Position numbers and translations under genes: made by a program. The notes beneath the pieces are model-generated. The model had not been told where the DNA came from, did not search any database, and was given only the letters and a program-made list of their open reading frames with translations. Below, piece by piece: positions 3,487 through 64,000 of a DNA stretch of 64,000 bases (position 1 is its first letter; each line of letters starts with the position of its first letter). The stretch spans positions 14,693,201 to 14,757,200 of the forward strand of contig NC_092670.1 of the NCBI RefSeq assembly GCF_964355755.1, given 5' to 3'. The stretch comes from Antedon mediterranea. Taxonomy: Eukaryota > Echinodermata > Crinoidea > Comatulida > Antedonidae.

Positions 3487-3502
3487 TTTAGTTGATGTAC
3501 AC

Positions 3503-3527
3503 AGCACATACATAACATGTATGTGCT
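3503..3527. promoter_or_regulatory. Perfect inverted repeat just upstream of the gene 1 start
   Basis: agcacatacat and atgtatgtgct form an 11-bp perfect inverted repeat around a 3-bp centre, 17 nt upstream of the chosen ATG. It is kept unchanged upstream of gene 2 (11899-11923). It may be a 5'UTR hairpin or a dimeric protein site; the role is unknown. Confidence 0.4.
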
Positions 3528-5931: not shown

Positions 5932-6437
5932 AAATGAAAAATAAAGATGAAAAAAATCAAATTTTGAATAGCCCGTTTTGTAGTTAACATAAAGTTATTC
6001 ACTTCCACCGAAAAAAAATCCGAAAAAAATATTGATTTCGCTTATAAAAAAATCAAAATAAGTTTACCATTTTTTCGAACTCATCGGCTCAGAAATTAAG
6101 CCGGTAGAGCTAACTCATACATATGCATGATATGTTAATGAGCATCCACACAGCAGAGATCTGATCTAACAATGGACGATGCACGTTGTATGTACAACAA
6201 CACCACCAGAGATCGACGCGACTCGACTGTGGGTTTCCCTGGCCTGATCGTATAAATATGTAAAGCTGAGCTGTTAATTTGTCGGTAAGTAGGCCTAGAC
6301 GGTTATTTTAAATATAATAATATATATAACGCAATAATAACAGGAAGGTAAATTAATTAACTTAGCCTGGGATTTTTTCAGTTCAGGGCTAGGCCTAGAA
6401 TAATTAATACATGCTGCTGCATATTACTAATACTAGG
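5932..6437. other. Intergenic, nothing recognised
   Basis: AT-rich sequence between the right edge of the left duplicated segment and the proposed last exon of gene 2. No CCP exon, repeat or RNA gene was recognised. Confidence 0.5.
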
Positions 6438-6550
6438 CTAGTATCCGTAGCAACATGATGGAGGTATAAAATGGTACTCCCAAAGATGCCAATCACCCCA
6501 TGAACCTCCATGATCAGCCCAACGACTGTTGCATATGTATAGACGATTAT
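6438..6550 (-). CDS. Candidate terminal exon of gene 2, Trp-rich, with stop codon
   Basis: A strong acceptor (pyrimidine run then ATTACAG) is followed by a phase-1-compatible frame of 36 codons ending in TAG. The peptide begins NRLYIC, contains RWADHGGSWGDWHLW and ends SCCYGY. It has five Trp and four Cys in 36 residues. NxRLYxC followed by GxWGDW loosely recalls the repeat of vitelline membrane outer layer protein 1 (VMO-I), but one short exon cannot establish that. The exon fits the phase of the upstream CCP exons and would supply the missing stop. It could also be an unrelated relic. Confidence 0.4.
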
Positions 6551-30286: not shown

Positions 30287-30414
30287 TTATGGACATTTTG
30301 TTAATTGTCCTCTGCAACCTTCGTCACTGTTGTCTCCACAATTGTCTTCTCGGTCACATGTAAACATGCACTGTATACACTTTTGGTTTTCACATCTAAA
30401 TCCATCACAAACAT
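30287..30414 (-). CDS. Gene 3 terminal exon: LDL-receptor class A module and stop
   Basis: The exon reads [15 protein letters not shown], then [16 protein letters not shown], then RGQLTKCP and TAA. The calcium-cage motif [12 protein letters not shown] is intact. There are seven cysteines in the module region instead of the usual six (an extra one after KCIQ), plus one near the C terminus. Only eight residues follow the module, so there is no anchor or transmembrane tail. Confidence 0.85.
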
Positions 30415-33400: not shown

Positions 33401-36400
33401 ACTACTCCAAATTTAGATAGAGCACACACAATAATGATTAGCACTTACGGTTACATTGCGGGATGCTTGCATTCCATGTGCCATTTTCGCAAAGCAGATA
33501 TTCGTCTCCGTCTAGTGAGAATCCAGATGTGCAACCAAAATGAATGATGCCTTCATGACTTAGGGAAGAGCTGTGACGGAAACCTGCTGATGGAGTTCCT
33601 GGGTCCTTGCAGTTGGCTTAAAAAGTTATAAGATGGAGTTACTGAAGAGTTTTTAACACATCAATGGTAAAAATAGCACCAAATAATCAGTAGGGGTATC
33701 AGTAACAATTCTTAAATAGATAATATATAATAACCAGTCAGGAAAATTTATATTTCATTGTATAAATTATAGCATTTTTTGTAAAATTGATCGAATTGGA
33801 AAGTATTGTGTAAAATATGTTTCTATTATAATTTCATTATTAGTAAATCAATTATAATACAATAAAATAACCTCACCAACACAGCTGGGATGTTCCTCTA
33901 AAAAGATGCCATCTTGACAATTTAAGTATTCATTTCCCAATAATTGAAATCCATCAAAACAGTAAAACTGTACAACACCACCATGGTAGGTCGATCCATT
34001 AAAACGTCCATTTAAAATGAGGGATGGCTGTTGACAATCCACTGTAATATAAAAATGTGAAAATGTTCTCTTAATGACAGGTTATTTCTCTATTTTGTTA
34101 ATGGTGGCCTCTGGTTAAAGTATATTTCTAGACTTATTATGACCACCATGACCAGCTTTATTAACAAAATATGTGTTATTTTTTTTAAACTAATAAACAA
34201 AACAAAAACAAAATATAAGTCTTTCAATTTCTCAAGATACCAAGAGATTAAAATAACGTTAAAAATATTTAAATGAATAATATATTACTGTGACATTCTG
34301 CAACTACATCACTGTAAACACCATTAACACAGAATATCTGAGGTTTGCCAGTCAGTGTATATCCAACATCACAGCTAAAACCAATAACATCTCCATGCGA
34401 AAATGAGCCTGTTATTACACCGTTTACAGGGGATTCCAGTGGAGCACAATTAGCTGTGAATAACACAAATGTGTATATATGTAATGCATCGATGGGTCTC
34501 AAATATTTTGTATGTACATTGAAAAATAAAATGAATTAGTCTTGTATTACCTTTACATTCTGCAAATGCTGCAGAGAAGGCTCCATCATAACAAGTCACA
34601 ATTCTTTCACCAACGAGTGTATAGTCATTATTGCAAATAAAAGTCACCGAATCACCATGGTTGTAACCACCAATAAACACTCCGTTTTCAATAGTAATCA
34701 ATGGGGAGCAGTTTGCTGATAATGTAATTATTATTATTAAACTAAACCATTTAAACAACTGAAAATAGGCCTATGGATTTAATTTGTAAGGATAAGGTTA
34801 CAATATGTATTGTTGTAATGTGTGCTATTATCCAATAACCAGCCAATTTGACTATTTTTTTGTTTAAATTATATTTTTTTCAGGTAAATAAATTTTTTTT
34901 TCAATCCAATTTTTGGTCAAAGGGGATAACTATTATATGATATTAAAATGGCGTATTCAACAAAAAAAATATTTTTTCAGGGGGACAATACATCTTTAAA
35001 CTTTTTGTTGGAGGATGACGCTGTTTTTTGAACATACAAAATGGATTGCTGCCATTTAATAATACCAATATTTGTATACCAGTATTGATGCTTATACTGT
35101 ACACTTTATAAAAAAAAATTAAACGTTGTATAGTAAATGATTAGTAGTTCAAACCATTGTGTAACTTAACGTATGCACAATTATATTAAAGTATACATAT
35201 TTCACTTACCATAACAGGTACCAAGTGCATTGCTATATAGTCCATCATCACAAAATGCTTGGTTTTGGCCAACTAATGTAAACCCATCATTACATATAAT
35301 TGTAACACGATCATTGTGATTAAACCCTCCCGTTACTCTTCCATTTTCGATGCCACCCAATGGGAAGCAATTTGCTGAAAATAGTAACACAGTCATTGTC
35401 AATTTTCATCAAAAATTGTACATCATAAATTGTACATCATAAATTCTTATCATCATTGTTTCATTAATTCATTTAAATATTCAATTGTCTAACTCATACA
35501 AGTTAATAAACTGTCATTCCTTGCTGCTATATCATTAAGTCAATTATTATAAACCTTGCATTCACATTAAAAATAGATATAAACTTACCTCTACAAATTG
35601 CATATGATGAGCTGTATTGTCCACTATCACATGTTATTGTTGTTTCTCCTACCAATGTATAACCAACATCACATGTGAATGTAATGGATCCTCCGTGAGT
35701 AAAGCTACCAGAGTACTGACCATTTACAATACTGATGGACGACTCGCAGTTAGCTAAAGATAGGAGAATATTTATTTGTAAGAAGTTTTCCTCATGCTAT
35801 CATTTTTCAATTATTTCTATTATTTTAGCCTTCAAGATTATTTCCCATAAACTAAAAATTTAACCTTTGGCAATTATACATAACAAAATATATACATAAT
35901 TAAAACACCAAGAAATAACAAATTAAATAATTAAAATAGATAAAAGTATGCTTCAAAACAAGAATGTTGAATATTTTTATAAATTGTTAAAAATGTATTT
36001 TAAAATATTTTAATAAAAATAGTAATTAAAATTTTGTACTATTGTTCAAATAAAAAATAGACCTTCGGGTAAACATGAATGTTGATCTATATTTTGAGAA
36101 GGATTCGTGAATAGTCTAAAACAAAAACCATTAAAATGATATTGCACATGTAAGTTTTGTACAGCATTATTTTTGTATTTTTTTTTCAAATTTGAAAATT
36201 GGAAAAAAAGATATCATTATCATTGCTTGATTTAGAGAAGGACTGATGTATTACAATATTTTATTGTCATTTGTATTACCATAGCAAACAGGGAATGCAT
36301 CTTGATATTGTCCATCTAAACACATAGTACTTGAAACACCAACTAATGTGTATCCATCGAAACATGTAATGGTAGTTATGCCTCCATGGGATTGGTTTGA

Positions 36401-39400
36401 CTCTACCCGACCATTAATGACAGGCGACGGTGTCTGACAATTAACTATAGTATAAGTCAAAGGTTAGTTAGTTATACATATATAGTCTACAATTTTTTAT
36501 AGATACAAGTCGTGGATAAATCAATTAAGTATCTTACTCATAGACAACCAAAACCATTGATGGTTTGTTTAATCAAAACCTTTGATGAACTTGGTCAAGT
36601 ATAATCAAAGTAATTCTAATACATTTTACTTTCATATTCTTTAAAATTAACACATAAAATCTTGTCATAATCATTTTATATTAATATTACCTGTAGGTTT
36701 AGAAATATTATTTTATAAAAAAAAAAAAGCATTCGGATTAAACAATTAGTAATTTTAACTTACGTCGACATTCAGCAATAGCTGAACTAAATTGTCCATT
36801 ATTACAAGAAACTGTAGATTCTCCAACAAGTTTGTAATCAACGTTACATACAATATTAAAAGAACCTCCATGGATGAAGCTGCCAAATACTTGTCCATTT
36901 GCAACACTTGTTGTAGAGTCACAGTTTGCTGAAAGAATAATGAAAGTTTAATGTTTAGTTAGAGTGATGTTGGTACTTAAAATAATCTTAATTCCTGAAT
37001 AGAAATCATTTGAAACATGGATGTCATCTATGGTTGAAATATGCAGTTTCAGGGAAAAATTTCATTTTAAAATTTTGTTTAGCAATATTGCTAATCAAAC
37101 TGATTTTTGAGTCAAGGAACATAGTTTTGTATTGCATTTTTTGCTATACAATTTTAGAAATGTGTAGCAATAAGGTTGTTTTGTATAGCTTTTTGCTATG
37201 CTACACTGGCGAAATTATTCCCTGAGTTTGTACAAAAAAATTTGTAAAATAACTGTACCTTTACATTCCGCATATGATGAGCTGTATTGACCATTATCAC
37301 ACGTTATTGTTCTTTCTCCAACCAATGTATAACCAACATCACATGTGAATGTAATGGATCCCCCATGAGTAAAGCTACCAGAATACTGACCATTTACAAT
37401 ACTTATAGATGACTCGCAGTTAGCTATGGAGAAAGTTTTATCATATATCATTTAAATGGCACATAAATGTCAATGGAAAACGTTTAAGCAATGAACAAAT
37501 GTGCAACTAATATTAAAATTATAATACGTTTGTCAAGACATTGCATACATACCTCTACACACAGCATATGATGAGCTGTATTGTCCATTATCACAAGTTA
37601 TTGTTGTTTCTCCTACCAATGTATAACCAACATCACATGTGAATGTAATGGATCCTCCGTGAATAAAGCTACCGGAATACTGACCGTTTACAATACTGAT
37701 GGATGATTCACAGTCAGCTGGGGAGAGGACACACAAGCATGCATTTAAATTTAAATAATGTGCATTTTTTGGCTAAGGTACCTGTATGTAGAAATAATTG
37801 TTATGAAAGATCTTTCCCACATATATGATTTACTTCTCTTTTACCCGATTGTTATGAAATTGATCTAAAAAATATCTTTTTAGCAACAATTGCAGTTCTA
37901 ACATAGCAGAAGTTGCTCCAGCAGGGCCAGAGATAGAGCAGGGCCAGAGATATAGTAACACATTTCATGGTTAGCGCTATTTTAATATTGATATCGTGAT
38001 AGTACTTACAACTACAAACAGGGAATGCATCTTGATATTGTCCATCTAAACACATAGTACTTGAAACACCAACTAATGTGTATCCATCGAAACATGTAAA
38101 GGTAGTTATGCCTCCATGGGATTGGTTTGACTCTACCCGACCATTAATGACAGGCGACGGTGTCTGACAATTAACTATAGTATAAGTCAAAGGTTAGTTA
38201 GTTATACATATATAGTCTAGCATTTTTTATAGATAAAAGTCGTGGATCAATCAATTTTACTCCGATGACTTTAATTAGAAATATTTTTTTAAGAAACATG
38301 TTTACTTTATTTTTTTCAGTCCTGTGGAATACTGAAATGTCTTGGCTACAAGACAATGAATCTTTGGAAGAGCATGTCACACTAAAAGGAAGAAACTGTA
38401 TGACCCTGTGTCATTGAAACAGTATGCATCAAAAGGACGATTTTATGCGTAAAGACATTTATACAAATCGTTACGTCGTCAGGACTTTCCATTTTTCTTT
38501 AAGAGGTATATTTGGGGGAATGGCATTTTTAGAGTTTATACAGGTAAGTATCTTACTCATAGACAACCAAAACCATTGATGGTTTGTTTAATCAAAACCT
38601 TTGAGGAACTTGGCCAAGTATAATCAAGGTAATTCTAATACATTTTACTTTCATATTCTTTAAAATTAACATTTAAAATCTTGTCATAATCATTTTATAT
38701 TAATATTACCTGTAGGTTTAGAAATATTATTTTATAAAAAACAAAAAGCATTCGGATTAAACAATTAGTAATTTTAACTTACGTCGACATTCAGCAATAG
38801 CTGAACTAAATTGTCCATTATTACAAAAAACTGTAGATTCTCCAACAAGTTTGTAATCAACGTTACATACAATATTAAAAGAACCTCCATGGATGAAGCT
38901 ACCAAATACTTGTCCATTTGCAACACTTGTTGTAGAGTCACAGTTTGCTGAAAGAATAATGAAAGTTTAATGCTTAGTTAGAGTGATGTTGGTACTTAAA
39001 AGAACCTTAATTCCTGAATAGAAATCATTTGAAACATGGATGTCATCTATGGTTGAAATATGCAGTTTGTACAAAAAAATTTGTAAAATAACTGTACCTT
39101 TACATTCTGCATATGATGAGCTGTATTGACCATTATCACACGTTATTGTTCTTTCTCCAACCAATGTATAACCAACATCACATGTGAATGTAATGGATCC
39201 CCCATGAGTAAAGCTACCAGAATACTGACCATTTACAATACTTATAGATGACTCGCAGTTAGCTATGGAGAAAGTTTTATCATATATCATTTAAATGGCA
39301 CATAAATGTCAATGGAAAACGTTTAAGCAATGAACAAATGTGAAACTAATATTAAAATTATAATACGTTTGTCAAGACATTGCATACATACCTCTACACA

Positions 39401-42400
39401 CAGCATATGATGAGCTGTATTGTCCATTATCACAAGTTATTGTTGTTTCTCCTACCAATGTATAACCAACATCACATGTGAATGTAATGGATCCTCCGTG
39501 AATAAAGCTACCGGAATACTGACCGTTTACAATACTGATGGATGATTCACAGTCAGCTGGGGAGAGGACACACAAGCATGCATTTAAATTTAAATAATGT
39601 GCATTTTTTGGCTAAGGTACCTGTATGTAGAAATACTTGTTATGAAAGATCTTTCCCACATATATGATTTACTTCTCTTTTACCCGATTGTTATGAAATT
39701 GATCTAAAAAATATCTTTTTAGCAACAATTGCAGTTCTAACATAGCAGAAGTTGCTCCAGCAGGGCCAGAGATAGAGCAGGGCCAGAGATATAGTAACAC
39801 ATTTCATGGTTAGCGCTATTTTAATATTGATATCGTGATAGTACTTACAACTACAAACAGGGAATGCATCTTGATATTGTCCATCTAAACACATAGTACT
39901 TGAAACACCAACTAATGTGTATCCATCGAAACATGTAATGGTAGTTATGCCTCCATGGGATTGGTTTGACTCTACCCGGCCATTAATGACAGGCGACGGT
40001 GTCTGACAATTAACTATAGTATAAGTCAAAGGTTAGTTAGTTATACATATATAGTCTAGCATTTTTTATAGATAAAAGTCGTGGATCAATCAATTTTACT
40101 CCGATGACTTTAATTAGAAATATTTTTTTAAGAAACATGTTTACTTTATTTTTTTCAGTCCTGTGGAATACTGAAATGTCTTGGCTACAAGACAATGAAT
40201 CTTTGGAAGAGCATGTCACACTAAAAGGAAAAAACTGTATGACCCTGTGTCATTGAAACAGTATGCATCAAAAGGACGATTTTATGCGTAAAGACATTTA
40301 TACAAATCGTTACGTCGTCAGGACTTTCCATTTTTCTTTAAGAGGTATATTTGGGGGAATGGCATTTTTAGAGTTTATACAGGTAAGTATCTTACTCATA
40401 GACAACCAAAACCATTGATGGTTTGTTTAATCAAAACCTTTGAGGAACTTGGCCAAGTATAATCAAGGTAATTCTAATACATTTTACTTTCATATTCTTT
40501 AAAATTAACATTTAAAATCTTGTCATAATCATTTTATATTAATATTACCTGTAGGTTTAGAAATATTATTTTATAAAAAACAAAAAGCATTCGGATTAAA
40601 CAATTAGTAATTTTAACTTACGTCGACATTCAGCAATAGCTGAACTAAATTGTCCATTATTACAAGAAACTGTAGATTCTCCAACAAGTTTGTAATCAAC
40701 GTTACATACAATATTAAAAGAACCTCCATGGATGAAGCTGCCAAATACTTGTCCATTTGCAACACTTGTTGTAGAGTCACAGTTTGCTGAAAGAATAATG
40801 AAAGTTTAATGCTTAGTTAGAGTGATGTTGGTACTTAAAAGAACCTTAATTCCTGAATAGAAATCATTTGAAACATGGATGTCATCTATGGTTGAAATAT
40901 GCAGTTTGTACAAAAAAATTTGTAAAATAACTGTACCTTTACATTCTGCATATGATGAGCTGTATTGACCATTATCACACGTTATTGTTCTTTCTCCAAC
41001 CAATGTATAACCAACATCACATGTGAATGTAATGGATCCCCCATGAGTAAAGCTACCAGAATACTGACCATTTACAATACTTATAGATGACTCGCAGTTA
41101 GCTATGGAGAAAGTTTTATCATATATCATTTAAATGGCACATAAATGTCAATGGAAAACGTTTAAGCAATGAACAAATGTGCAACTAATATTAAAATTAT
41201 AATACGTTTGTCAAGACATTGCATACATACCTCTACACACAGCATATGATGAGCTGTATTGTCCATTATCACAAGTTATTGTTGTTTCTCCTACCAATGT
41301 ATAACCAACATCACATGTGAATGTAATGGATCCTCCGTGAATAAAGCTACCGGAATACTGACCGTTTACAATACTGATGGATGATTCACAGTCAGCTGGG
41401 GAGAGGACACACAAGCATGCATTTAAATTTAAATAATGTGCATTTTTTGGCTAAGGTACCTGTATGTAGAAATACTTGTTATGAAAGATCTTTCCCACAT
41501 ATATGATTTACTTCTCTTTTACCCGATTGTTATGAAATTGATCTAAAAAATATCTTTTTAGCAACAATTGCAGTTCTAACATAGCAGAAGTTGCTCCAGC
41601 AGGGCCAGAGATAGAGCAGGGCCAGAGATATAGTAACACATTTCATGGTTAGCGCTATTTTAATATTGATATCGTGATAGTACTTACAACTACAAACAGG
41701 GAATGCATCTTGATATTGTCCATCTAAACACATAGTACTTGAAACACCAACTAATGTGTATCCATCGAAACATGTAAAGGTAGTTATGCCTCCATGGGAT
41801 TGGTTTGACTCTACCCGACCATTAATGACAGGCGACGGTGTCTGACAATTAACTATAGTATAAGTCAAAGGTTAGTTAGTTATACATATATAGTCTAGCA
41901 TTTTTTATAGATAAAAGTCGTGGATCAATCAATTTTACTCCGATGACTTTAATTAGAAATATTTTTTTAAGAAACATGTTTACTTTATTTTTTTCAGTCC
42001 TGTGGAATACTGAAATGTCTTGGCTACAAGACAATGAATCTTTGGAAGAGCATGTCACACTAAAAGGAAGAAACTGTATGACCCTGTGTCATTGAAACAG
42101 TATGCATCAAAAGGACGATTTTATGCGTAAAGACATTTATACAAATCGTTACGTCGTCAGGACTTTCCATTTTTCTTTAATTTGGGGGAATGGCATTTTT
42201 AGAGTTTATACAGGTAAGTATCTTACTCATAGACAACCAAAACCATTGATGGTTTGTTTAATCAAAACCTTTGAGGAACTTGGCCAAGTATAATCAAGGT
42301 AATTCTAATACATTTTACTTTCATATTCTTTAAAATTAACATTTAAAATCTTGTCATAATCATTTTATACTAATATTACCTGTAGGTTTAGAAATATTAT

Positions 42401-45400
42401 TTTATAAAAAAACAAAAAGCATTCAGATTAAACAATTAGTAATTTTAACTTACGTCGACATTCAGCAATAGCTGAACTAAATTGTCCATTATTACAAGAA
42501 ACTGTAGATTCTCCAACAAGTTTGTAATCAACGTTACATACAATATTAAAAGAACCTCCATGGATGAAGCTGCCAAATACTTGTCCATTTGCAACACTTG
42601 TTGTAGAGTCACAGTTTGCTGAAAGAATAATGACAGTTTAATGCTTAGTTAGAGTGATGTTGGTACTTAAAAGAACCTTAATTCCTGAATAGAAATCATT
42701 TGAAACATGGATGTCATCTATGGTTGAAATATGCAGTTTGTACAAAAAAATTTGTAAAATAACTGTACCTTTACATTCTGCATATGATGAGCTGTATTGA
42801 CCATTATCACACGTTATTGTTCTTTCTCCAACCAATGTATAACCAACATCACATGTGAATGTAATGGATCCCCCATGAGTAAAGCTACCAGAATACTGAC
42901 CATTTACAATACTTATAGATGACTCGCAGTTAGCTATGGAGAAAGTTTTATCATATATCATTTAAATGGCACATAAATGTCAATGGAAAACGTTTAAGCA
43001 ATGAACAAATGTGCAACTAATATTAAAATTATAATACGTTTGTCAAGACATTGCATACATACCTCTACACACAGCATATGATGAGCTGTATTGTCCATTA
43101 TCACAAGTTATTGTTGTTTCTCCTACCAATGTATAACCAACATCACATGTGAATGTAATGGATCCTCCGTGAATAAAGCTACCGGAATACTGACCGTTTA
43201 CAATACTGATGGATGATTCACAGTCAGCTGGGGAGAGGAAACACAAGCATGCATTTAAATTTAAATAATGTGCATTTTTTGGCTAAGGTACCTGTATGTA
43301 GAAATACTTGTTATGAAAGATCTTTCCCACATATATGATTTACTTCTCTTTTACCCGATTGTTATGAAATTGATCTAAAAAATATCTTTTTAGCAACAAT
43401 TGCAGTTCTAACATAGCAGAAGTTGCTCCAGCAGGGCCAGAGATAGAGCAGGGCCAGAGATATAGTAACACATTTCATGGTTAGCGCTATTTTAATATTG
43501 ATATCGTGATAGTACTTACAACTACAAACAGGGAATGCATCTTGATATTGTCCATCTAAACACATAGTACTTGAAACACCAACTAATGTGTATCCATCGA
43601 AACATGTAAAGGTAGTTATGCCTCCATGGGATTGGTTTGACTCTACCCGACCATTAATGACAGGCGACGGTGTCTGACAATTAACTATAGTATAAGTCAA
43701 AGGTTAGTTAGTTATACATATATAGTCTAGCATTTTTTATAGATACAAGTCGTGGATCAATCAATTTTACTCCGATGACTTTAATTAGAAATATTTTTTT
43801 AAGAAACATGTTTACTTAATTTTTTTCAGTCCTGTGGAATACTGAAATGTCTTGGCTACAAGACAATGAATCTTTGGAAGAGCATGTCACACTAAAAGGA
43901 AGAAACTGTATGACCCCGTGTCATTGAAACCGTATGCATCGAAAGGACGATTTCATGCAGACAACCAAAACCATTGATGGTTTGTGTAATCAAAACCTTT
44001 GAGGAACTTGGCCGAGTATAATCAAGGTAATTCGAATACATTTTACTTTCATATTCTTTAAAATTAACATATAAAATCTTGTCATAATTATTTTATATTA
44101 ATATTACCTGTAGGTTTAGAAATATTATTTTATAAAAAACAAAAAGCATTCGGATTAAACAATTAGTAATTTTAACTTACGTCGACATTCAGCAATAGCT
44201 GAACTAAATTGTCCATTATTACAAGAAACTGTAGATTCTCCAACAAGTTTGTAATCAACGTTACATACAATATTAAAAGAACCTCCATGGATGAAGCTGC
44301 CAAATACTTGTCCATTTGCAACACTTGTTGTAGAGTCACAGTTTGCTGAAAGAATAATGAAAGTTTGATGCTTAGTTGGAGTGATGTTGCAATTTAATAG
44401 AATCTTGATAGCTCGTAATTCCTAAATATAAATCAATTGAAACAAAAATATCATCTATGATTGAAATAAGTAACAAAACAATTTGTAAAAAAAACTGTAC
44501 CTTTGCATTCAGCATATGATGAGCTGTATTGTCCATTATCACAAGTTATTGTTCTTTCTCCTACCAATGTATAACCAACATTACATATGAATGTAATAGA
44601 TCCTCCATGAGTATTTCTACCAGAGTACCCACCGTTTATAATAAGGATGGAGGACTCACAGTTAGCTGGAAAAAGGACAGAAAAAGGACACATAAATACA
44701 TTATACAACTGTGACTATGGTACATAGACATTACTAGGGTGAACCAGATATTCCAACAGGATTGTAATTGCATTTATCTGCTGTGGAGTTGGAGTAGTTT
44801 TGCATCAGGGAGTTGAGAATTGGTCAGATTTTTTGCCCTACTCTGATGTGTAATTTGTATTACATTGAGAACACTTTGAAAAATTAATTCGATCAGGTGC
44901 GAATTACTTGTGACTTTTTTGCCAGGGTTCCCAATGTATTAACACCTACCTTTGCATTCCGCATATGATGAGCTATATTTTCCATTATCACAAGTTATTG
45001 TTGTTTCTCCTACCAATGTATAACCAACATCACATGTGAATGTGATGGATCCTCCATGACTAAAGCTACCAGTGTACTGACCATTTACAATACTGATGGA
45101 AGACTCACAGTTAGCTGTAACAAAAAATAAATGGAAATAAGTAACATGCACCAATAATATGGTACTTTGAAATATATAATGCATTTATGATTAAACATTT
45201 CTGCTAAAGTTTATGAACAGTCAGTGCCCCACAGATTAACGGTCCAGGAGCCAACATAACCATCTGATATTCTTTAACATGTTTTGCACAAAACAAAAGT
45301 GTTCGAAATACATTTGGAGAATTGATTTAAACATTTTAGAAATAACCAATCTGAAAATTACAAACCTTCACAAACTGGCAATTTGTCTGTGAATTGTCCA

Positions 45401-54400: not shown

Positions 54401-57400
54401 AGACCATGACCATGAAGTATTCAGTGGACAAAGTACCCATTTAATTAAAATTGGCTTATTCAAAAGATTAATATTGTCATCTATTTAGAATTTGCTAGTT
54501 TACACTAAAAAAAATTTATAAACTAAAATAAAAACATATTTACCATAGCAAACTGGAGCCTCGCCATTGTACTGTCCATCTCTACATGAAAGTGAGGGTC
54601 GACCCACAATACTGTAACCATCATTACATCTAAAGCGTACTTTATCACCATGGTTGTTACCTCCGTTGACAAGTCCATTCTCAAGGTCAAGAGGACGACA
54701 GTTAGCTGAAAAGTATTTCATGGTGTTAACTCAAGAAACCATTTCCAAGAGACGTTCTTTACTAGTATTGTTAATGTAGCGTTCAATTTAAATTATGTAA
54801 GTTATGTCCATAGTTATCATCAACTAAAATGCACTATTGCTTACCTCTGCATACAGGTGAAGCCGTGTTGTAAATACCATCAGTACACTCGAGAACTGGA
54901 GAACCCACCAGTATATACCCATCGTTGCATTTGAATGTAAGGACACCACCGTGTGAAAAACTTCCAGACACTTCTCCATTTTCAATCTTTTCTATTTCAT
55001 CACAATTGTCTGTCAATGGAAGAATTAAGGTAAAGTAATTAGTTTGTAAGAATAGGGAATTAGAAAATTTAACAGATATGTAAGAAAAGAGTCATTCACC
55101 ATAGAACATTATTATGCTATGTATTGAATAGTTTTAAATTTTGCAAATTTAAGAAGTCAGATAATTCAAATTCTGAGTATTATTTTACTAGGTTAATCAT
55201 AAATTGTGTGAAATGTTTACCTTTAACAGGGACAAAATTTAATTAATACATTTAGTTATTTATTTCAACAGTATTTACGAGGGTAGTTTATCTAGCCAAA
55301 GATGATAATTTAGAACACTCAGAGCAATTTGATTTGAATTTGACAAGATAAATAATACTAATATAAACAACTTACCACTACAAATTGGTAATGAATTATC
55401 ATATAGACCATCGTAACATCTTACTTCAGCACTACCAACAAGTGTATAACCTGTTATACAACTGAAACTCAGACTTCCTCCATGTTCACTTGAACCAGTA
55501 ACAAACCCATTTACAAGATTGTCGATATCTTGACAGTTTTCTGTACAAAAAAAGAATACGGTAGCATTAGTTTTTTATTTAAGTGACAAGTTCAATATTA
55601 TTCATCATCATCATTTAAGTTTCATGAGTTTAATATTGTCCAGAGAAAAACCCTGCATGACATATAGCTAAAACTTTCAAAAATCTGATAGAGTACTTTA
55701 CCAAAACACTCAATTGACTTGGCATCAACATCAAAGTTTCCATTATAACATGTCGCCCTGTCAGACCCCACAAGAGAAAAGCCAGCATTACACGAGATGT
55801 AGACAGTTTCATTGTGAGTAGTTTCCCCAGTGACCAGAGCATCTGATATTGGTCCAAACTGCTCACAGTTTGCTAAAAATAAAAATAGACAGACACTATC
55901 AAAATATTACTGCGAGTTATACATTGATAGTTACTTGCCTGACCCCAAAACACTATGTTAAAATCCTGTCTGGTGTCAGATTTCTCTCATAGCAACGCAA
56001 ATCCACTAAAGACTATTAAGGTAGAGCGTCTTGTGTGTATGCTTGTCTTGTAAACAAAAACAACTTAAATTTGATCTTGAGGATTGTTGGCAATATATCA
56101 GTAGATTCAGAGCTTATATGATGTACTAACTTATAAAATAGATTCAGTGGTACTGTATATTGTGCATAAGAGTTAAATAAACATTTTTCTTACCATAACA
56201 TTCTGGAAGTTTTACATTTAGTGCACCATCAACACAGGCTATTTCTTCATATCCCACCAGAGTATAGTCACCATCACATGTAAAAGTGATGACACTACCA
56301 TGGCGAAGTGAGCCTGTAATCTGACCATTAGGAAAATCAATACTCTCTGGTGGACAGTTTGCTGAAAAAGGGAAATATTGGTAATTTAAATTTTTTTTTT
56401 AAGCATAGCTTGCCATCATCTCCATGCTATTAATTATGAGTGGTCTTGTCATATTAAGCAATATCTTTTGGAATATTTCTATTCAGGAATCCAGAGGAAA
56501 CCCCTCTTAAGAGGACTCTGAAAAATGACATTTTTTTAAATTAAGGCCAACCCTTATTCAGGGGACATCCCTCACAAGGAGAACCTTTGTTGGGTATTGA
56601 AGGTGTTACATTAATATGAGATTTAAAGATAATAATTAAAATATTACCATAACATTTCGGTAAACTTGTGTTAGAGGAATACACGTAGCTTCCATCAATA
56701 CAAGTGGCTGACGATTCTCCAACTAATTCATATCCATCAATACATGTGAAGAATACCATGCTGTTATGTTCCAAGCGTCCTTGGACTGTGGCAAAATCAA
56801 CATCTGGTAACGAGGTACAGCGAGCTGTGTTGAAACAAATTATACAAATACAATTATTATTATTACAACAATACAATACAAAGGGTTACATTAGGTGGTT
56901 AAAATCAGTGCTGAATGTATGAACCAACTTTTTACCTAATTTTGCCCTTATGTAAATTTATATATAGATACAATTCTTCAATAATGTCTGGATATTGGTG
57001 AAATTAATAATATTTATTACAGGGGTGGCGCCAGGATCTTCCCGACGCGGGGGATACAATCCTCGACGAGGGGGCTATGCGAGCGAAGCGAGCATCACAA
57101 GGCTGGGGGCCAGGGGGCCGCCAAGGGCCCCCGGTGGGAGTCCAGGGGGCGAAGCCCCCGGCAGCAACGCGTTCTAGCGTCATTTGAGGTCATTTTAATC
57201 AGATTTAGGGTAGCCATTTTTTCCATTTTTTATAATGCATAAATAAAATACTGCGTGCAAAAAAACGATGCGCGATGACTGTTTCAATCCATATTTTTCA
57301 ATTTAAAAAATAAAAGTTCAAAGAAAATTTAGAAAAATAGAGTTGGAGGTCCTGGAAATTGGACTTATTATATTTCAAAACATGAAACAAAATATATAAG

Positions 57401-60400
57401 TCCCTATCATGGTTGTGACTGAGCTAAGAAATGTTTGAAAAATATAGATGTTAGGTCTCGGAAAATGCACTTCTTGTACTTCGAAATATGACCAGCTTTA
57501 TTGTTGGGGCTGAGCTAAGAAAATGTTTAAAACTAGAGCTGCAGGTCTTCAAAAAATTGCATTTTATACTTTGGAAACATCAGGCCCATAGGCTTAAAAA
57601 ACGCAAGCGTAGACCTTTTTCAGTCGGGGAAATAAGTTTATTCCTCCCAAGTGTATGCCTGCGTACCATCTGGACTTCCGAGTGTTGAGAAATTCATGAC
57701 ATACAGGACATTGAAAATTTAATAACTTAGCTATAAAGATGTTGGCTAAGCGAAAATGGCATGTTTTTTTGTTTAGTAATGGATGAAATATTTATTTTAG
57801 GTGCCCCACGGTACAGGTTACTTGTAAATTAAAAAATTGGTGAACATACGAACAATTAACATAATTCGTTTTTGCTGTAGTGTAGCGTACGTCGACACAG
57901 TACACGACGTAACCGTCGGTAAACTTCGCCTGGAAAATAACTACAGTACACATTTTGGTCCCTGGATGGAACATGATATCACGACCCAACGTTGAACGAT
58001 TCGTACAACGGGATACCGCCAGACAAGTGCGTACCTATAGCTATTGTTTAGTAGTAAGTTAGATCGCTGGCAATAATGAATGCATATAAAGTGCATAATA
58101 TTACTCTGACGTACTCTCACGGTCAATGAAACGTCGCGGTTTTCTAGGCGCTGAAGCTACCAAGTGAACGCTAACGTTTTTTACTGTATATTATATTCCC
58201 CGACAAAAAGTACCCGTGTTCCCTTCGGTAACCGTCGGTAAACTTCGCCTGGAAAATAACTACATTACACATTTTGGTCCCTGGATGGAACATGATATCA
58301 CGCGTCTCGACCCAACGGTGAACGATTCGTACAAAGGGATACCGCCAAACAAGTGTGTACTAGCTATTGTTTAGTAGTTAGATCTCTGGCAATAATGAAT
58401 GCATAAAAGTGCATAATAGCCCTCTGACGTACTCTCACGGTCAATGGAATGTCGTGGTTTTCTAGGCGCTGAAGCTATATGAAGTGAACGTGAATTTTTG
58501 TTACTGTATGTTATATTCCCCAACAAAAAGTACCCGTGTTCCCCGACGGGGGGGCTAGGCTTCCCGACGAGGGGGCTAGAGCCCCCGTAGCCCCCCCCCC
58601 CCCCGCTGGCGCCACCACTGATTTGTTAATCACTTCTTACCATAACAGACTGGTTTTAACTCATTTACTGGATATTCATATGTTCCATTGTTACAAGTTG
58701 CAGATGATGCTCCTACTAAATTGTAGCCAGAGTCACAGCTAATATCCATTGTACTCGCATGAGCATCCGAAGTCCGTTGAACACTTCCATTTGGAATGAG
58801 TGGGGTTAAGGCACAGTTTTCTACAAAGAATACACAAATTGTTATGTTAAGGGAATTCCGTAAATCCTAAAATAAGCTGCCATTTGCTTATGGTATTTCT
58901 AATCTAATCCCATATAAGTAAACAGGCACTATGATTAAAGGTTTGAAAGATGATAATGGATGGACTGACTCAATGTTTGATTATAGATCCTGCTAAATGA
59001 GCTCTTTTTTACATTGTTCTTTTAATCAATGTATATTAGGTACTGCATGTAGCTGTAGGCCTAATTGATAACGTGAAAAGACCAATATATTATTTTACCA
59101 TAACAGACTGGAATTTCATCGCTATATTTTCCGTTGTTACATGTTAACTTTTTGCGTCCTACCAGAGTGTATCCATCAAAACACGAGAAACGTACACGAC
59201 CATCATGTTCAAATGACGTGGCAGTCACCAGACCATTTGGTAGAAAGAAAATGGGCTCACAGTTTGCTACAAAAAATGAGTATAGTGTAATAATAAATTA
59301 GGGAAGTTGGCAGTTTCACGATGATAGTTTCATGGAGAAACAGTACTTAATAGTGGAGAAGATATTGAGAGGGTTATTCTCAAGTATTTTGTTTATTGAG
59401 ATAAAAACATGGGATATAATACAATTAAAGATTAGGCGACACCATTTAAAAATGCAAAGTTTCAAGAAAATTACTATAAAAATAGTACAATAAAAAATAA
59501 TAATAAAAAAAATAATTTTTTCTTTTTTATTTTTTCCCTTAGATTTCCTAAAGTCTAGATCTTACCATAACATGTTGGTTCCTTTTTCTTATTGGCCAGA
59601 ACATATTGACCATCATCACATGTTGAAAACTTAGCACCAACCAATGAATAACCTTCGTTACATGTGTAATCAATAGTGGATCCATGGTTGTTTGATGATT
59701 TGGTAACACTTCCATATTCAAGAATTGGTTCATCAAAACAATTTTCTAGTATTAATTAAAAACAAGAAATAGAATAGAGTTAATTGTGTATAATAATGTT
59801 TTTTTTTATAAATACTGCAAAACACCACATGGTAAGTATTTTAATAATATATTAATTTTACTAGAAATAAATAATATAGAAGATAATAAAGAAGAAATAA
59901 AAAATAGATTTAGGAGAGATTGCAAAATCAAAATACCATAACATGTTGGAAGTAGTCCTCCTTCATATACAAAGTTTCCTGCATCACACTCAGCATAGCT
60001 ACCTCCCACACGAGTGTAATCATCATTACATTCAAATGTTACCACACTTCCATGTGTACTGTTGCCATTTACAACACCATTATCAAGAGGGGGTAAAGTA
60101 AGACAATCAGCTGAAAAACACAACATTTAAGTTTAACATTTCTCAAAGGGTACTATTGACTTGCTATGAAATGGTAAGACCATAATAACATATTCTGTGA
60201 TGTTAGCTTTTACTTTTATAGGAAATATATATATATCTTTTAAAAAATTAATAATCATTTTGCATTTTCTAATTTAACTGATAGATTAATGAAAAAAAAT
60301 GGGATTAAAGAACTGACTGATAGATTTAAAATGGAAACTAATATTAATGTACTCTTCCAGGTAAGAAAATATGTATTTTAGCTGATATTATATCTAGAAT

Positions 60401-63400
60401 ATTTATCTAACCATGAGATACAAAAGTGTATATGTAGGCCCTACCTATGCATTGAGTATCAGTTGAACTCAGCTGACCATCTTCACATGTAATAATGTTT
60501 GATCCAACAAGACTATATCCAAAATCACATGTAATTTCAATAGCACCTCCGTGTTGGAAACTTCCACTAAATTGCCCATTTGGAATAGTGAACTCGTTGC
60601 AGTTGCCTGAAATAATAGTAAAATACACATATCACATACATATTAAAACCAAACAACTTATCCTAAAGCTCTTTCTGCATTATTAAACTAGTTTGACAAA
60701 AGAAAGTATGATTTGCCCAAATATTATGGTAATATGATGTCATCGTTATGGGTACATCACATTTTTTTGTAACATAAAGTTTGATAGTGTAGGCAGAGCG
60801 TTAAACCATCCCTGTTGCAGAGAGAGATTTTGAGATTCCTGATTTGATTCATTTTGTCTAATTATTAAAATAGAAAATAACATTATTAAATTAACAGTTG
60901 TTTCTGCATTTTTAGTGAGATCTCAATTTAGGACCTACGCATTATTGTGTCTTAGAATCCACCAAAACCATGTTGAATAATCGAAAACTTCCCTGCATAC
61001 ATTGTATATATATTATATGTCCAAATGTCATTTCAAATTGAAAGCTCCCAAATAACATATACACAATTTTTGTAACATGTAAAAAGAATTTAATTTAGTT
61101 TTAAACGACAATCTATAATTATTTTACCAGGTTTTTAGCTGAGACTAGTCTTTTAAAAAGTAGGCCTACTATTATATAGAAAAATGTCTTTTTCTTAATT
61201 TTCTTTAATATTTACCTAAGCACTGTTGGTTCAATTCTTCAAATTGTCCATTTATGCATGTTGTTCTGGCTGCCCCAATCAGTGTGTATCCATCATTACA
61301 TTTGAATTTAGCCACACCACCATGATTGAGTACAGCATCTACTCTTCCATTGTCAAGGAACGGTGGTGACTCACAGTTTTCTAACAAAATCAAAACAAAT
61401 GGTTCTCTTCAGGAAATTCCTACACACTATAGGGTGAGCTCACATCGCTCGCTCCTCCTCTAGGAAGTGTAGACGATGGTTCTTGGAATAATAATGACTC
61501 GGATAAAAAGGTTTTAGAAGGACGTTTTCCTTGTACGTTTTCTGTAGGTTACCATTATTGAAAATTCTTGACATTTGTAAAAACTAAACCTCCGTTTCAC
61601 AGTGTCTTAGATGATTAATAACATTTTAAAGTATAGTGTTTATTGTTTGGTATGGCCCTTATAGGGCGGAGGTGGGGAGGCGGAGTTCATTTGAGGGAGG
61701 TGCTTATTCGAGGGATACGTTTAATTTTTTAGTTTTAATAATATGGTAACATTTATAATCAATTGAAATCCTCTAGTAGATATGAAAAGTGTTAAAAAAT
61801 AATAAATGTTTGGTAAATTGTGTGATGAATTCTACTACAAATAGTATAATTGTGTTATTATAAATATAATACAAAATTGTGTGTATAAATGTGGATAGGC
61901 GTTTATTAGATAGATAGGTTGGGGGGCGGGTATTATTATTCAAAGCGATTTTTTATTGGGGATGTTTTGGGCATTTATTCAAATAAATACCATCCTAATA
62001 ATTAATACATTATTTAATTTAAACATCTTTTGAAACTAACTTTCGCGCGACAGAGTGGGCCGTTTCGGCCAAAGAAGGAAGACGTTTTAGACAGCTTGCA
62101 ACATGGGCAGACGTATCCTGGTCCCAACGGGACACAGATAGCCAATAGTTACCCAATAAAACTCGGCTATCGGGATTTCACTCGATTTTAAACAAAAGGT
62201 CTTATCATCAGATCTCCCTTATTTTATATTACTATTCCCCACAATATACTCCGATGCTTTATGGCGTATATTTAATTTGATCTTTATAGTAGCAGTATAA
62301 TTTTTATTAACTACTGTCCTTCACACGCGCGGTCCGATCCGAAAGTAAACAAAAAACTAAAATGGCTATAGCCACTAACTGCCAACTTAGTTGAAACCAG
62401 GAAGTTGCAAGGTGAACACCCGTGAACGGTGAGCTCATCATGAACCCAGAAATTACTTGGACCGCATACAATTGAAATTGAATTGAAAATCTACCGATGC
62501 AATCAGAACTTTGGTGTTAAAACCCTTTATATATCTTCCTAAAATAGAAATATATATCGTAATAGTGGAAACTAATGTTATCAAATCTACGTTTCACGGT
62601 TCATCTGAGATATATAAGGTAGGTAACCAAGGCGGAGATTTGTCCCAAAGTTTTTCCATTGTGCTCGTCTATGTCAGAATTAACCATAATTTATATACAG
62701 TATAGATGTGCAAACAACTTTGATGGATGATAATTTAAATAATGTTTTCCATTGCTCATTCATGCATTAGTCTACTAATGAGTTTTCTTTCTACACAGAA
62801 AGTTTAATCTTCTGTCATGTGTATGTAACTGCCATCTGCTGGACAATCCTATCCAAATTCACATTTTCAATCAAGTTTCCCTTATAATTCATTGATAACA
62901 AGATCTTATGAGTTGACAATGAAAATGGCAATTTCATTTGTACAATGAAATATAACTATGAAATAATTTTAGATGGTATTAAGGTAAAGTGATTTATTAT
63001 TCTAGTACTTTAATCTAGTGATTTAAATTCTAGGCCTATGAAATGATGTCGAGAATCTACTGTAGGCTTACTTAGCATTTATTAAATCAGTCTACTTACT
63101 GAAACAAGATGGGATGTCTCCATTGTATTGTCCATCATTGCAGTCAACCTTCTTACGTCCTACCAAAGTGTAGTCCTCATTACAAGAAAATCTAACTCTT
63201 TGGCCGTGATCAAAAGAACCTTCTAGTTGCCCATTTTGGAAATCAGTAATAGGAACACAATTTGCTTTAATGGAAAGAAAATCATTAAACTATTAGTAAT
63301 TACTATGTATTTATCTACATACTGTAGGTGTCAAAACGTATAGACTGTAAGTGAAGGAGTAGCGTTACTACTCAAAAATAACATACATATTAATACAGTG

Positions 63401-64000
63401 TGTATGTCGAAAAGGGAGATGAACATCAAGATTGTTAGCAAAGGTTCAGTTTCTACTTGAACTAACCCACGGACAGTATGTGGTATCATTCAGTGAAGTG
63501 ACTGCCAGTACTAAATTCCTATCTCACAACATTTTTGTATACCAGTACCATTGAAAATAGTACAGTAGTAGTAGTAGTACAAAGTATTACCATAACATTT
63601 TGATTCAGATTCTTCTGAACCAATTACATAGTTTCCATTGTCACACACAGCAGTGTTAGCTCCAACTAGCGAATACCCTTCGGAACATTGATAGTTCAGT
63701 GAACTTCCATGGATGTTAGATGAGTATGAAACGTTTCCATTTTTCAAGATGGGAGCATCATCACAATTTGCTAAAATGAAACAAAGCAATTAAATGTAGT
63801 TTGATAACTGTAGTTTACGAAATAATTTCATGAAGGGAATGAAGTATGATGATATAAAACAGAAATAATATTTGTTAATATAACTAGAAATGTGTTGATT
63901 TGTCTTGTTTTGCCTTGTTATTTTGTAAGACCAGTTTTTGGCGTAGACCTAGTAACTTATAAAAGTGATAGAATGTTAACTGACTTTTAACATATAAGTA
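30287..64000 (-). CDS. Gene 3: giant secreted CCP-array / C-type lectin / EGF / LDLa protein, 5' end beyond window
   Basis: Sixty-one exons are visible. In protein order they are 57 CCP exons (63770 down to 33449), two C-type lectin exons, one EGF exon and an LDLa exon ending in TAA at 30287-30289. The visible coding length is about 10.5 kb, near 3,500 residues. Every exon is bounded by GT-AG, every intron examined is phase 1, and exon lengths are multiples of 3 except the last, so the frame stays open throughout. No signal peptide, internal start or stop was found between exons, so one gene is the simplest reading. A split into two or more genes cannot be excluded without transcripts. There is no C-terminal membrane segment, so the product is probably secreted. 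CCP, lectin and LDLa modules are extracellular binding modules. Complement-like, pattern-recognition or adhesive roles are inference. Exon blocks are described separately. Confidence 0.85.
31100..31237 (-). CDS. Gene 3 exon: EGF-like module
   Basis: The 46-codon exon contains [14 protein letters not shown], then [14 protein letters not shown], a six-cysteine EGF pattern. It has no clear calcium-binding D-x-D/N-E start. Phase 1 on both sides. Confidence 0.88.
31286..31432. mobile_element. Short inverted-repeat element (MITE family A, copy 2)
   Basis: It starts taaagctttgtctacactat and ends (antisense) taaatctctctctacactat. The interior has gatatcatatca and a gggcatatcac word shared with the other copies. 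It lies in the gene 3 intron between the EGF and lectin exons. Confidence 0.65.
31940..32344 (-). CDS. Gene 3 exon: C-type lectin-like domain, C-terminal of two
   Basis: One exon of 135 codons. It starts CQTNIYC and has the long-form N-terminal cysteines. The fold core WIGL is seen in FWIGLSRE, and the module ends [11 protein letters not shown]. The calcium and sugar-contact motifs EPN or QPD are absent, with KYWPDFRC at the equivalent place, and the WND motif is not intact (PWYHSEC). Calcium-dependent sugar binding is therefore doubtful; protein or other ligands are possible. Confidence 0.88.
32879..33220 (-). CDS. Gene 3 exon: C-type lectin-like domain, N-terminal of two
   Basis: One exon of 114 codons: [34 protein letters not shown], then [29 protein letters not shown] and KKQFIC. 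All four core lectin cysteines are present. EPN/QPD is replaced by NWPQH; the WND position reads WDN. The pair of lectin domains lies directly after the CCP array. Confidence 0.9.
33449..35753 (-). CDS. Gene 3 CCP exons, C-terminal block of six
   Basis: Exons 33449-33616, 33877-34041, 34289-34453, 34551-34715, 35210-35374 and 35589-35753. The one next to the lectins (33449) is the only CCP seen that keeps the canonical Trp ([13 protein letters not shown]). It also starts [12 protein letters not shown] like ordinary CCPs. The exon at 33877 resembles the first CCP of genes 1 and 2 ([17 protein letters not shown], ending HPSCVG). The exon at 35589 is the [13 protein letters not shown] type, nearly identical to exons in gene 2. 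Each has four cysteines, and all are phase 1-1. Confidence 0.88.
34855..35045 (-). repeat. Diverged trace of the 17.8/5.3-kb repeat
   Basis: Words such as tttttcaggtaaata, gataactattatatga, aaaatggcgtattcaacaaa and gggggacaatacatctttaaa align with antisense 5280-5460. It lies in the gene 3 intron between CCP exons 34551 and 35210. Confidence 0.5.
36280..44345 (-). CDS. Gene 3 CCP exons, amplified V-B-A-R block (18 exons)
   Basis: Four CCP types recur in order. R (REC..., [17 protein letters not shown]): 36764-36928, 38783-38947, 40622-40786, 42454-42618, 44181-44345. A (GERTITC): 37259-37423, 39098-39262, 40937-41101, 42769-42933. B ([19 protein letters not shown]): 37553-37717, 39392-39556, 41231-41395, 43063-43227. 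V ([19 protein letters not shown]): 36280-36444, 38010-38174, 39849-40013, 41688-41852, 43520-43684. All are 165 nt, phase 1-1, open, with four cysteines. The copies differ by single bases: V has TFTCFDG in most copies but TITCFDG at 36280 and 39849, and R at 38783 has Phe for Ser before the third Cys. Confidence 0.9.
37050..37224. mobile_element. 175-bp MITE inserted in one copy of the 1.84-kb repeat
   Basis: The ends cagggaaaaatttc and gaaattattccctg are inverted repeats with one mismatch. The flanking agttt (37045-37049 and 37225-37229) is a perfect 5-bp target duplication. The other three repeat copies have the empty site gcagtttgtac. Confidence 0.85.
38257..38545 (+). other. Insert in V-R intron with exon-like edges on the plus strand (repeated in the array)
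   Basis: This 289-bp segment is absent from the homologous intron at 36526. On the plus strand it has a good acceptor (pyrimidine tract then ttcag, at about 38320) and a good donor (cag-gtaagt, 38543). The part between would be about 225 nt. It reads [19 protein letters not shown] in one frame and [19 protein letters not shown] in another, each ending in a stop. It looks like a captured, now broken, exon of unknown origin. Copies lie near 40096-40384 and 41935-42216, with a truncated one near 43756-43957. Confidence 0.45.
44501..48054 (-). CDS. Gene 3 CCP exons, block N-terminal to the amplified array (six exons)
   Basis: Exons 44501-44665 (A-like, [16 protein letters not shown]), 44950-45114 ([19 protein letters not shown]), 45366-45527 ([18 protein letters not shown], 54 codons), 46430-46594 ([19 protein letters not shown]), 47611-47775 (B-like) and 47890-48054 (V-like, [19 protein letters not shown]). 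The B-like and V-like exons next to the R-like exon at 48890 suggest this is where the ancestral module of the array lay. Confidence 0.87.
48185..48870. mobile_element. Probable repeat element in gene 3 intron
   Basis: The ends cgagagtgcatacctccgcc and (antisense) ctccgccaaggaggtatatg are rich in cctccgcc/ggcggag. The interior has an AT microsatellite (48271-48290) and the acagacagacagacaaacac run (48810-48830), as seen in many invertebrate interspersed repeats. No coding sequence is recognised. Confidence 0.45.
48890..56824 (-). CDS. Gene 3 CCP exons, diverse block (19 exons)
   Basis: Exons 48890-49054 (R-like), 49329-49493, 49646-49810, 49983-50147, 50590-50754, 50937-51101, 51409-51573, 51977-52141, 52432-52596, 53007-53171, 53342-53503, 53668-53832, 54091-54255, 54544-54705, 54845-55009, 55376-55540, 55702-55872, 56194-56361 and 56648-56824. 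Lengths are 162-177 nt, all phase 1-1, all with four cysteines and a central G-[YF]-[ST]-x-V-G motif (e.g. GYTLVG, GFSLEG, GYSIVG). Sequences differ strongly from each other, unlike the amplified block. The canonical Trp is replaced by Tyr, Phe or Leu (e.g. [33 protein letters not shown]). R-like 48890 ends CR before GTAAGT. Confidence 0.88.
57020..58620. mobile_element. hAT-like non-autonomous DNA transposon, 1.6 kb
   Basis: The termini caggggtggcgccagg and (antisense) cagtggtggcgccagcg are inverted repeats. The flanks atttatta (57012-57019) and atttgtta (58621-58628) match at 7 of 8 bases, as expected for an 8-bp hAT target duplication. GC-rich subterminal blocks (ccccgacgagggggct) occur at both ends. 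The interior has a direct repeat of about 280 bp (about 57911-58190 and 58228-58510). No transposase frame is seen; the open frames at 57488-57688 and 57792-58126 are unrecognised. It lies in a gene 3 intron. Confidence 0.8.
58641..63770 (-). CDS. Gene 3 CCP exons, N-terminal-most visible block (eight exons)
   Basis: Exons 58641-58820, 59099-59266, 59566-59745, 59937-60110, 60445-60606, 61216-61380, 63100-63264 and 63591-63770. Several are longer (174-180 nt) because of extra residues between the third and fourth cysteine, e.g. [16 protein letters not shown] at 63591 and [15 protein letters not shown] at 59937. Most of the long ones also start with an acidic or polar stretch ([17 protein letters not shown]). 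Phase 1-1 throughout. The gene continues to the right; 63771-64000 is intron. Confidence 0.87.
60664..60804. mobile_element. Short inverted-repeat element (MITE family A, copy 3)
   Basis: It starts taaagctctttctgcattat and ends (antisense) ttaacgctctgcctacacta, with gatgtcatcgttatgggtac inside, closely matching copy 1 at 26187-26335. It lies in a gene 3 intron. Confidence 0.65.
61428..62700 (-). repeat. Interspersed repeat, copy 2 (inverted partner at 15380-16728)
   Basis: It begins gggtgagctcacatcgctcg and reads on as the reverse complement of copy 1. Shared landmarks are tcctctaggaagtgtagacg, a ggcggaggtggggaggcgga block, cagagtgggcc, and aaatctacgtttc near the far end. It lies in the 1.7-kb gene 3 intron 61381-63099, where no missed CCP exon was found. 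Confidence 0.65.

Follow-up and report, generated by a model that had tools for sequence, protein, structure and literature searches.

We describe a predicted gene of Antedon mediterranea whose product would be a secreted, very long rod of CCP modules that carries lectin-fold and Kazal modules at its ends and has probably been lengthened by unequal crossing-over. We assign this reading, which is drawn from DNA sequence, a probability of about 0.75. Both the CCP array and the gene extend past the edge of the window (the whole stretch of 64,000 nucleotides that was analyzed, contig C1:14,693,201-14,757,200), and the complete gene needs 26.7 kb more. With that addition, the predicted gene spans 60.4 kb and consists of 89 exons, all joining in phase 1, which amount to 14,907 nt when spliced and contain a single stop codon, at the end. 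The predicted protein (4,968 amino acids, 533 kDa, pI 4.5) begins with a signal peptide, followed in order by two EGF modules, three Kazal modules, 79 CCPs, two CTLDs, another EGF module and an LDLa module. Coordinates are listed in Table 1.

CCP exons were located with a profile seeded with candidate exons from the same region that had been recognized by their cysteine and splice-site pattern. The profile was applied as a six-frame search to the window and to 49.8 kb upstream of it (113.8 kb in all), with a cut-off of >30 bits. In addition to 57 exons in the main part of the array, it detected 22 farther upstream and nine below 30 kb. Every one of these exons lies on the minus strand. Five weaker hits (7.8 to 12.7 bits, three on the plus strand and two on the minus strand) were excluded before counting. 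Because the profile was seeded from the region's own exons, the Pfam Sushi model PF00084 serves as an independent test. This model matched 57 of the 57 exons in the window (E<=0.01) and 22 of the 22 upstream. Each of the 57 is flanked by AG/GT and is in phase 1-1. Most are 165 nt long (n=44), and the others measure 162 nt (n=4), 168 nt (n=3), 180 nt (n=3) or 171, 174 and 177 nt (one each). A first-pass annotation of this DNA had proposed 57 consecutive phase 1-1 CCP exons of 162 to 180 nt, and this count proved exact according to the profile, PF00084 and the splice sites. The tail of two lectin exons, EGF, LDLa and stop that it had placed after the array was likewise borne out.

Table 1. Predicted features of the giant CCP gene and of its neighbors, on the coordinate scale of the window; positions above 64,000 lie beyond its edge.
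Feature	Position	Strand	Evidence and remarks
Signal-peptide exon	90,681-90,615	minus	MASHWLNCYIAVLLFATPIFGI; donor TAG/GTAAGT
EGF exon 1 (head)	88,829-88,713	minus	domain match
EGF exon 2 (head)	83,507-83,388	minus	domain match; donor GTTTGT
Kazal exon 1	82,169-82,023	minus	domain match
Kazal exon 2	81,616-81,476	minus	domain match
Kazal exon 3	80,044-79,895	minus	domain match
CCP modules 1-22	64,172-79,678	minus	upstream of window; profile and PF00084
CCP modules 23-79 (57 exons)	33,449-63,770	minus	profile and PF00084; phase 1-1
D-Q-S-S four-CCP higher-order repeat	37,225-43,958	minus	1,839-bp unit; three full copies and one of 1,224 bp
CTLD exon 1	32,879-33,220	minus	PF00059; without EPN/QPD or WND
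CTLD exon 2	31,940-32,344	minus	PF00059; without EPN/QPD or WND
EGF-like exon (tail)	31,100-31,237	minus	domain match
LDLa exon (last)	30,287-30,414	minus	domain match; stop TAA at 30,287
Small gene	7,430-11,882	minus	signal exon 11,882-11,792 and seven CCP exons; 422 aa; 3' end provisional
Tandem relative of small gene	530-3,486	minus	signal exon from 3,486 and two CCPs; 148 aa; 3' end provisional

Two exon boundaries of the giant gene are provisional: the end of the second head EGF exon, whose donor is the least consensus-like among the head exons, and the exact end of the first CCP exon, for which several acceptors are possible. A candidate signal peptide at 81,364 was rejected, as it lies between Kazal exons and has no phase-1 donor above 4 bits. 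Additional modules were sought by scanning with Pfam the three minus-strand frames of 30.3-33.4 kb, of 80.0-113.8 kb and of array introns longer than about 1 kb. In these stretches, the only match beyond the modules already named was a GIY-YIG piece; collagen, VWA, VWD, pentraxin and CUB models had no match. The GIY-YIG endonuclease-like frame lies on the minus strand within an intron of 5.9 kb, at 67,163-67,564 in window coordinates (L002:3363-3764), and we presume that it might come from a Penelope-like mobile element. Such an element may explain the size of this intron.

Outside the signal peptide, the giant protein has no hydrophobic segment (best 19-residue mean, 1.06). We therefore predict that it is secreted and has no membrane anchor, in agreement with the soluble protein envisaged in the first-pass annotation. 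Its two CTLDs match PF00059 with E-values of 1.9e-16 and 8.5e-12, and the best-scoring solved chains for the second are PLA2R, an IgY receptor, lymphocyte antigen 75 and mannose receptors. None of the motifs EPN, QPD and WND occurs in the two CTLDs of the giant gene or in those of a paralog described below. Because these motifs are missing, protein ligands are likelier than sugars, and carbohydrate recognition is not supported by the CTLD sequences.

The repeated modules have a number of features in common. The four cysteines are invariant in both CCP alignments (the 57 exons of the window and the 22 upstream), and a histidine is located 7-9 positions before the second cysteine in 77 of 79 modules of the giant gene and in 15 of 19 modules of the paralog. 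An AlphaFold model calculated from the 57-row CCP alignment is a confidently predicted CCP fold (pLDDT 96.1). When the 54-residue CCP model was used as a Foldseek query, CR2, factor H and CD55 were among the matches listed, with TM scores to the query of 0.66-0.89. The titles of the matches listed were mostly those of CCP proteins, the second being titled as an F-box zinc-finger entry, and the best E-value among them was 1.3e-3, none reaching 0.001. The linker between successive CCPs (C4 to next C1) is three residues long at 78 of 78 joints in the giant gene and at 18 of 18 in the paralog. These lengths depend on the chosen splice sites, in that farther donors would lengthen 3 of the 78 joints. 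The published range of CCP linkers, as given in an excerpt of PMC6683126, is 3-8 residues. An excerpt of PMC10518620 describes the tryptophan between the third and fourth cysteines as conserved in CCPs. This residue is present in only 4 of the 79 modules (3, 4, 10 and 79) and is otherwise tyrosine (51), phenylalanine (18), leucine (5) or methionine (1); in the paralog, 1 of 19 modules has it. As the tryptophan is conserved yet not universal in CCPs, its replacement marks a subtype, and the modules remain CCPs.

The modules differ in how closely they resemble one another. Modules 1-11, 22-47 and 75-79 are diverged singletons, and modules 12-21 and 48-74 form two blocks composed of a few recurring types (S, D, Q, E and K). 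Copies of the D-Q-S-S repeat (Table 1) are 99.1-99.4% identical, introns included, and in six pairwise comparisons they differ at 0-0.8% of exon positions and 0.3-1.2% of intron positions. A four-CCP genomic block has thus recently been duplicated in tandem. The dN/dS ratio is 0.18 for S-type exons (91 pairs, 14 distinct exons), 0.38 for D (6 pairs) and 0.30 for Q (10 pairs); single pairs give 0.53 for K and 1.69 for E. By these ratios, the main repeated exon types are under purifying selection, though not uniformly. Between the youngest units, differences number 5/660 in exons versus 3/1,179 in introns (u0-u1) and 3/660 versus 4/1,171 (u0-u2), and the higher exon rate counts against uniform purifying selection.

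The array most likely grows and shrinks when its exon-intron blocks undergo unequal crossing-over. Because every CCP exon is in phase 1-1, gain or loss of a block cannot break the reading frame. Given symmetric exons and like joints, blocks could be gained, lost or skipped with frame and pitch intact. The resulting 79-CCP rod would separate an N-terminal EGF-EGF-Kazal-Kazal-Kazal head from a C-terminal CTLD-CTLD-EGF-LDLa head.

A second gene with the same plan was identified when the genome (354 Mb, 18 contigs) was searched. This paralog, G2, lies 20 Mb away on the minus strand (C1:34,904,167-34,927,251) and encodes, in order, two EGF modules, three Kazal modules, 19 CCPs (all phase 1-1), two CTLDs, EGF and LDLa. 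Its CTLDs match PF00059 with E-values of 3.3e-17 and 8.7e-10, and its second and third EGF modules were recognized on visual inspection and in pairwise alignments instead of through Pfam. Identities between corresponding end modules of the two genes are 49% and 43% for the head EGFs, 42, 56 and 58% for the Kazals, 35 and 39% for the CTLDs, 60% for the third EGF and 52% for LDLa. The last CCP of the paralog and module 79 are reciprocal best matches; its first CCP is nearest to module 1, but not reciprocally. The signal-peptide scan described below found no signal peptide for the paralog within 14.7 kb upstream. Because their end modules agree in kind and order, the two genes are, by sequence, members of one family. 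The heads are conserved and the CCPs number 19 in one gene versus 79 in the other, which indicates that the chain of beads changes length in evolution.

Several known proteins share part of this organization. Selectins also combine CTLD, EGF and CCP modules in one protein, but in the order CTLD-EGF-CCP-TM, opposite to that of the giant protein, and they have few CCPs and a membrane anchor. CSMD1-3 are likewise CCP-rich giants; however, they alternate CUB and CCP modules and are anchored in the membrane, whereas the giant protein has no predicted anchor, and CUB was unmatched in the stretches scanned. The sea-urchin mosaic proteins Sp5 and Sp5013 were reportedly described by Multerer and Smith in 2004, under a title that names domains of factor H, factor I and C6/C7. 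Judged by that title, these are also invertebrate deuterostome proteins that unite factor H-type with factor I-type domains; they are, to our knowledge, shorter, and we know of no CTLD-CTLD-EGF-LDLa tail in them. Polydom (SVEP1) resembles the giant protein in being a large mosaic of EGF modules and a long CCP array, and it is not known to contain CTLDs or Kazals. In C4BP, the CCPs are spread over several chains. Excerpts of PMC6683126 report 59 CCPs for C4BP and 34 for polydom, and the full name that they give for polydom includes VWA and pentraxin, modules that were unmatched here in the scanned stretches.

CR1 offers a close parallel to the shaft, namely a long uninterrupted CCP array made from multi-CCP blocks, of seven modules in CR1 (excerpt of PMC6683126) versus four here. 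An excerpt of PMC10518620 gives 30 CCPs for CR1 and alleles with 23, 30, 37 or 44. These alleles, which differ in seven-CCP blocks, make such a length mechanism visible in a known gene, and by analogy the long homologous repeats of CR1 could serve as a model for drift in shaft length. CR1 differs in being membrane-anchored and in having 23-44 CCPs, whereas the giant protein is predicted to be secreted and has 79. In contrast to CR1 and other RCA proteins, the giant protein is not composed of CCPs only, but adds EGF, Kazal, CTLD and LDLa ends. The longest single-chain CCP counts in the excerpts cited are those of polydom (34) and of CR1 (30, with alleles to 44). As the array has 79 modules, the first-pass annotation, which had called one of 57 unusually long, understated the case. 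The arrangement EGF2-Kazal3-CCPn-CTLD2-EGF-LDLa had no match in the literature searched; protein-architecture databases were outside that search, and priority is not claimed. Relative to this literature, we provisionally regard the architecture, a CCP-array mosaic, as new and its modules as known.

What such a protein does can be approached through its modules. Between its Kazal-EGF and lectin-fold heads, the rod would serve as a long spacer and as a multivalent ligand surface on which a few CCP types are displayed in many copies, and the most likely setting would be extracellular defense or recognition, at the body surface or in coelomic fluid. We lean toward defense because of the domain company, the kinship of the CCPs to complement proteins, a thioester-domain family in the genome and a factor-I-like Kazal signal below the cut-off. 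Taken alone, a defense role has, in our estimation, slightly less than an even chance, and a role in matrix or adhesion comes close to it in likelihood. In the latter case, the protein would be mainly a polydom-like scaffold in extracellular matrix, mucus or adhesive, in which the CCP rod acts as spacer and immunity plays no part. Modules of the EGF, CCP, CTLD and Kazal types occur also in matrix and adhesive proteins, and predicted secretion with no anchor, the acidic pI and CTLDs devoid of sugar motifs would all suit a scaffold. According to a text search, papers on a limpet adhesive and on red-coral skeleton each contain five of six domain words. Against a scaffold is the fact that collagen, VWA, VWD and other typical matrix modules were unmatched in the scanned stretches. 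Recent copy-number change is common to matrix and immune proteins and so does not decide between these roles, and we hold the scaffold to be a tentative but serious possibility.

An unlikely role is that of a complement regulator or receptor in which CCP triplets bind thioester proteins in the style of CR1 or factor H. Among solved chains, CR1, CR2 and factor H receive the top scores from the CCP profile, but high total scores for CR1 and factor H are expected for any long CCP chain, and 75 of the 79 modules have another residue in place of the conserved tryptophan. Potential partners exist in the form of the thioester-domain family, which has 51 exon-level matches and is clustered and multi-copy (C11:5.49-5.55 Mb, C8:15.55-15.64 Mb and C4:30.42-30.52 Mb). 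This family may be of the C3 or alpha-2-macroglobulin type; however, PF07678 also matches in bacterial controls and hence does not establish C3, and ANATO was unmatched in a search that had no working control. The third Kazal module of both genes hits the factor I Kazal model, although below the cut-off, and the 2004 title on sea-urchin mosaics cited above, as far as a title goes, also favors a regulator. A more speculative reading, which we consider quite improbable, is that the array is a length-variable rod that differs from animal to animal in the number and order of its CCP types and serves self or microbe recognition. Such differences would arise by unequal crossing-over of phase-neutral exon blocks and possibly by skipping of symmetric exons.

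The preferred reading of a long secreted rod presupposes that the exons belong to one gene, as the first-pass annotation had proposed. Signs of separate genes inside the array, namely internal signal peptides and exons of the head or tail kind, were sought in the sequence. The signal-peptide scan required an ATG, a hydrophobic core and a phase-1 donor scoring >8, and covered both strands of the 113.8 kb. On the minus strand, its only candidates were that at 90,681 and two ATG pairs (11.9 and 3.5 kb) with which two small genes downstream begin; a single hit on the plus strand indicates that chance hits are rare, not absent. No minus-strand candidate with a donor score >8 lies between 30,287 and 82,200, and relaxing the donor score to >4 yields four weak hits in 30.3-82.2 kb. 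Within the CCP array, exons of the head and the tail had no match. Since the paralog has the same end modules, both ends of the giant gene are real gene ends, and the prediction of a single gene from 30.3 to 90.7 kb is supported. It is very improbable that this gene is an annotation illusion in which adjacent CCP genes or assembly-made tandem copies have been joined: the model is indeed predicted from sequence alone, two introns (5,874 and 5,205 bp) are of intergenic size and small separate CCP genes seem to be present just downstream, but frame and phase hold over 89 exons, the scan that detects the neighbors' signal-peptide exons finds no strong one in the array, the paralog is bounded on both sides by these end modules, the repeat copies are not identical to one another, and the 5.9-kb intron contains the GIY-YIG piece and no other Pfam match. 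Chance or artefact as the source of the observed array is rejected on the basis of the domain matches, the frame and the paralog.

Two short genes of their own, and not the giant gene, appear to account for the nine CCP exons at 559-10,277. That they are pseudogene scraps was rejected, as a signal exon lies 5' of each group. In both genes, the last CCP exon reads into a stop, with a weak donor present, and an additional CCP exon without a donor is found about 4 kb beyond the left edge of the window (C1:14,689,320-14,689,481); for these reasons, the 3' ends are provisional. Most of the small-gene CCPs are of the S type, as in the giant gene, and S-type modules seem also to be secreted alone, through these two genes.

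Other CCP loci are present in the genome. Two clusters 43 kb apart, at C1:14.594-14.603 and 14.637-14.646 Mb, each consist of eight full modules and a fragment, are 98-99% alike in DNA and share the D, Q and S types with the giant gene. Head and tail exons had no match in either cluster. Among the 150 of 409 candidates that were scored, the CCP exons at C4:11,936,556-11,938,384 are spaced evenly and score equally or nearly so, and C6:19,649,741-19,654,625 has many CCPs in single long open frames of 639 and 687 amino acids. A copy of the giant gene's second EGF exon, 95% identical, is located at C2:11,762,728-11,762,850.

Further observations concern the window and the genome at large. Positions 19,780-21,275 of the window hold three tandem units of 500 bp that match at 97%. 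Genes resembling tRNA-Asp(atc) and tRNA-Val lie within and beside them, and this looks like a tRNA-derived repeat. Family searches of the genome for COX1, whose control gave matches in 8 of 14 genomes, and for GFP, which had no working control, yielded no match. A search for Hox genes gave 11 matches at E<=1e-15, of which 10 are on one strand within 7.90-8.21 Mb (0.31 Mb) of C2. At this threshold, the result points to one ordered Hox cluster. A Hox9/10-type homeodomain among the matches scores 129.8 bits with Hox-A9 and 94.2 bits with Drosophila Abd-B (solved chains). Together, these Hox results are indicative of an invertebrate deuterostome.

The two genes that share this plan constitute, in one genome, a family with fixed heads and a CCP shaft of 19 or 79 modules. 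At 3-4 nm per CCP, the longer rod would measure roughly a quarter of a micrometre. The lengthening mechanism is visible in the DNA, and copy-number variation between individuals is consequently directly testable. The three-residue linker predicted at all 96 joints suggests that a uniform pitch is either selected for or strictly inherited. If this is true, the protein would lend itself naturally to tests of how long CCP rods behave mechanically.
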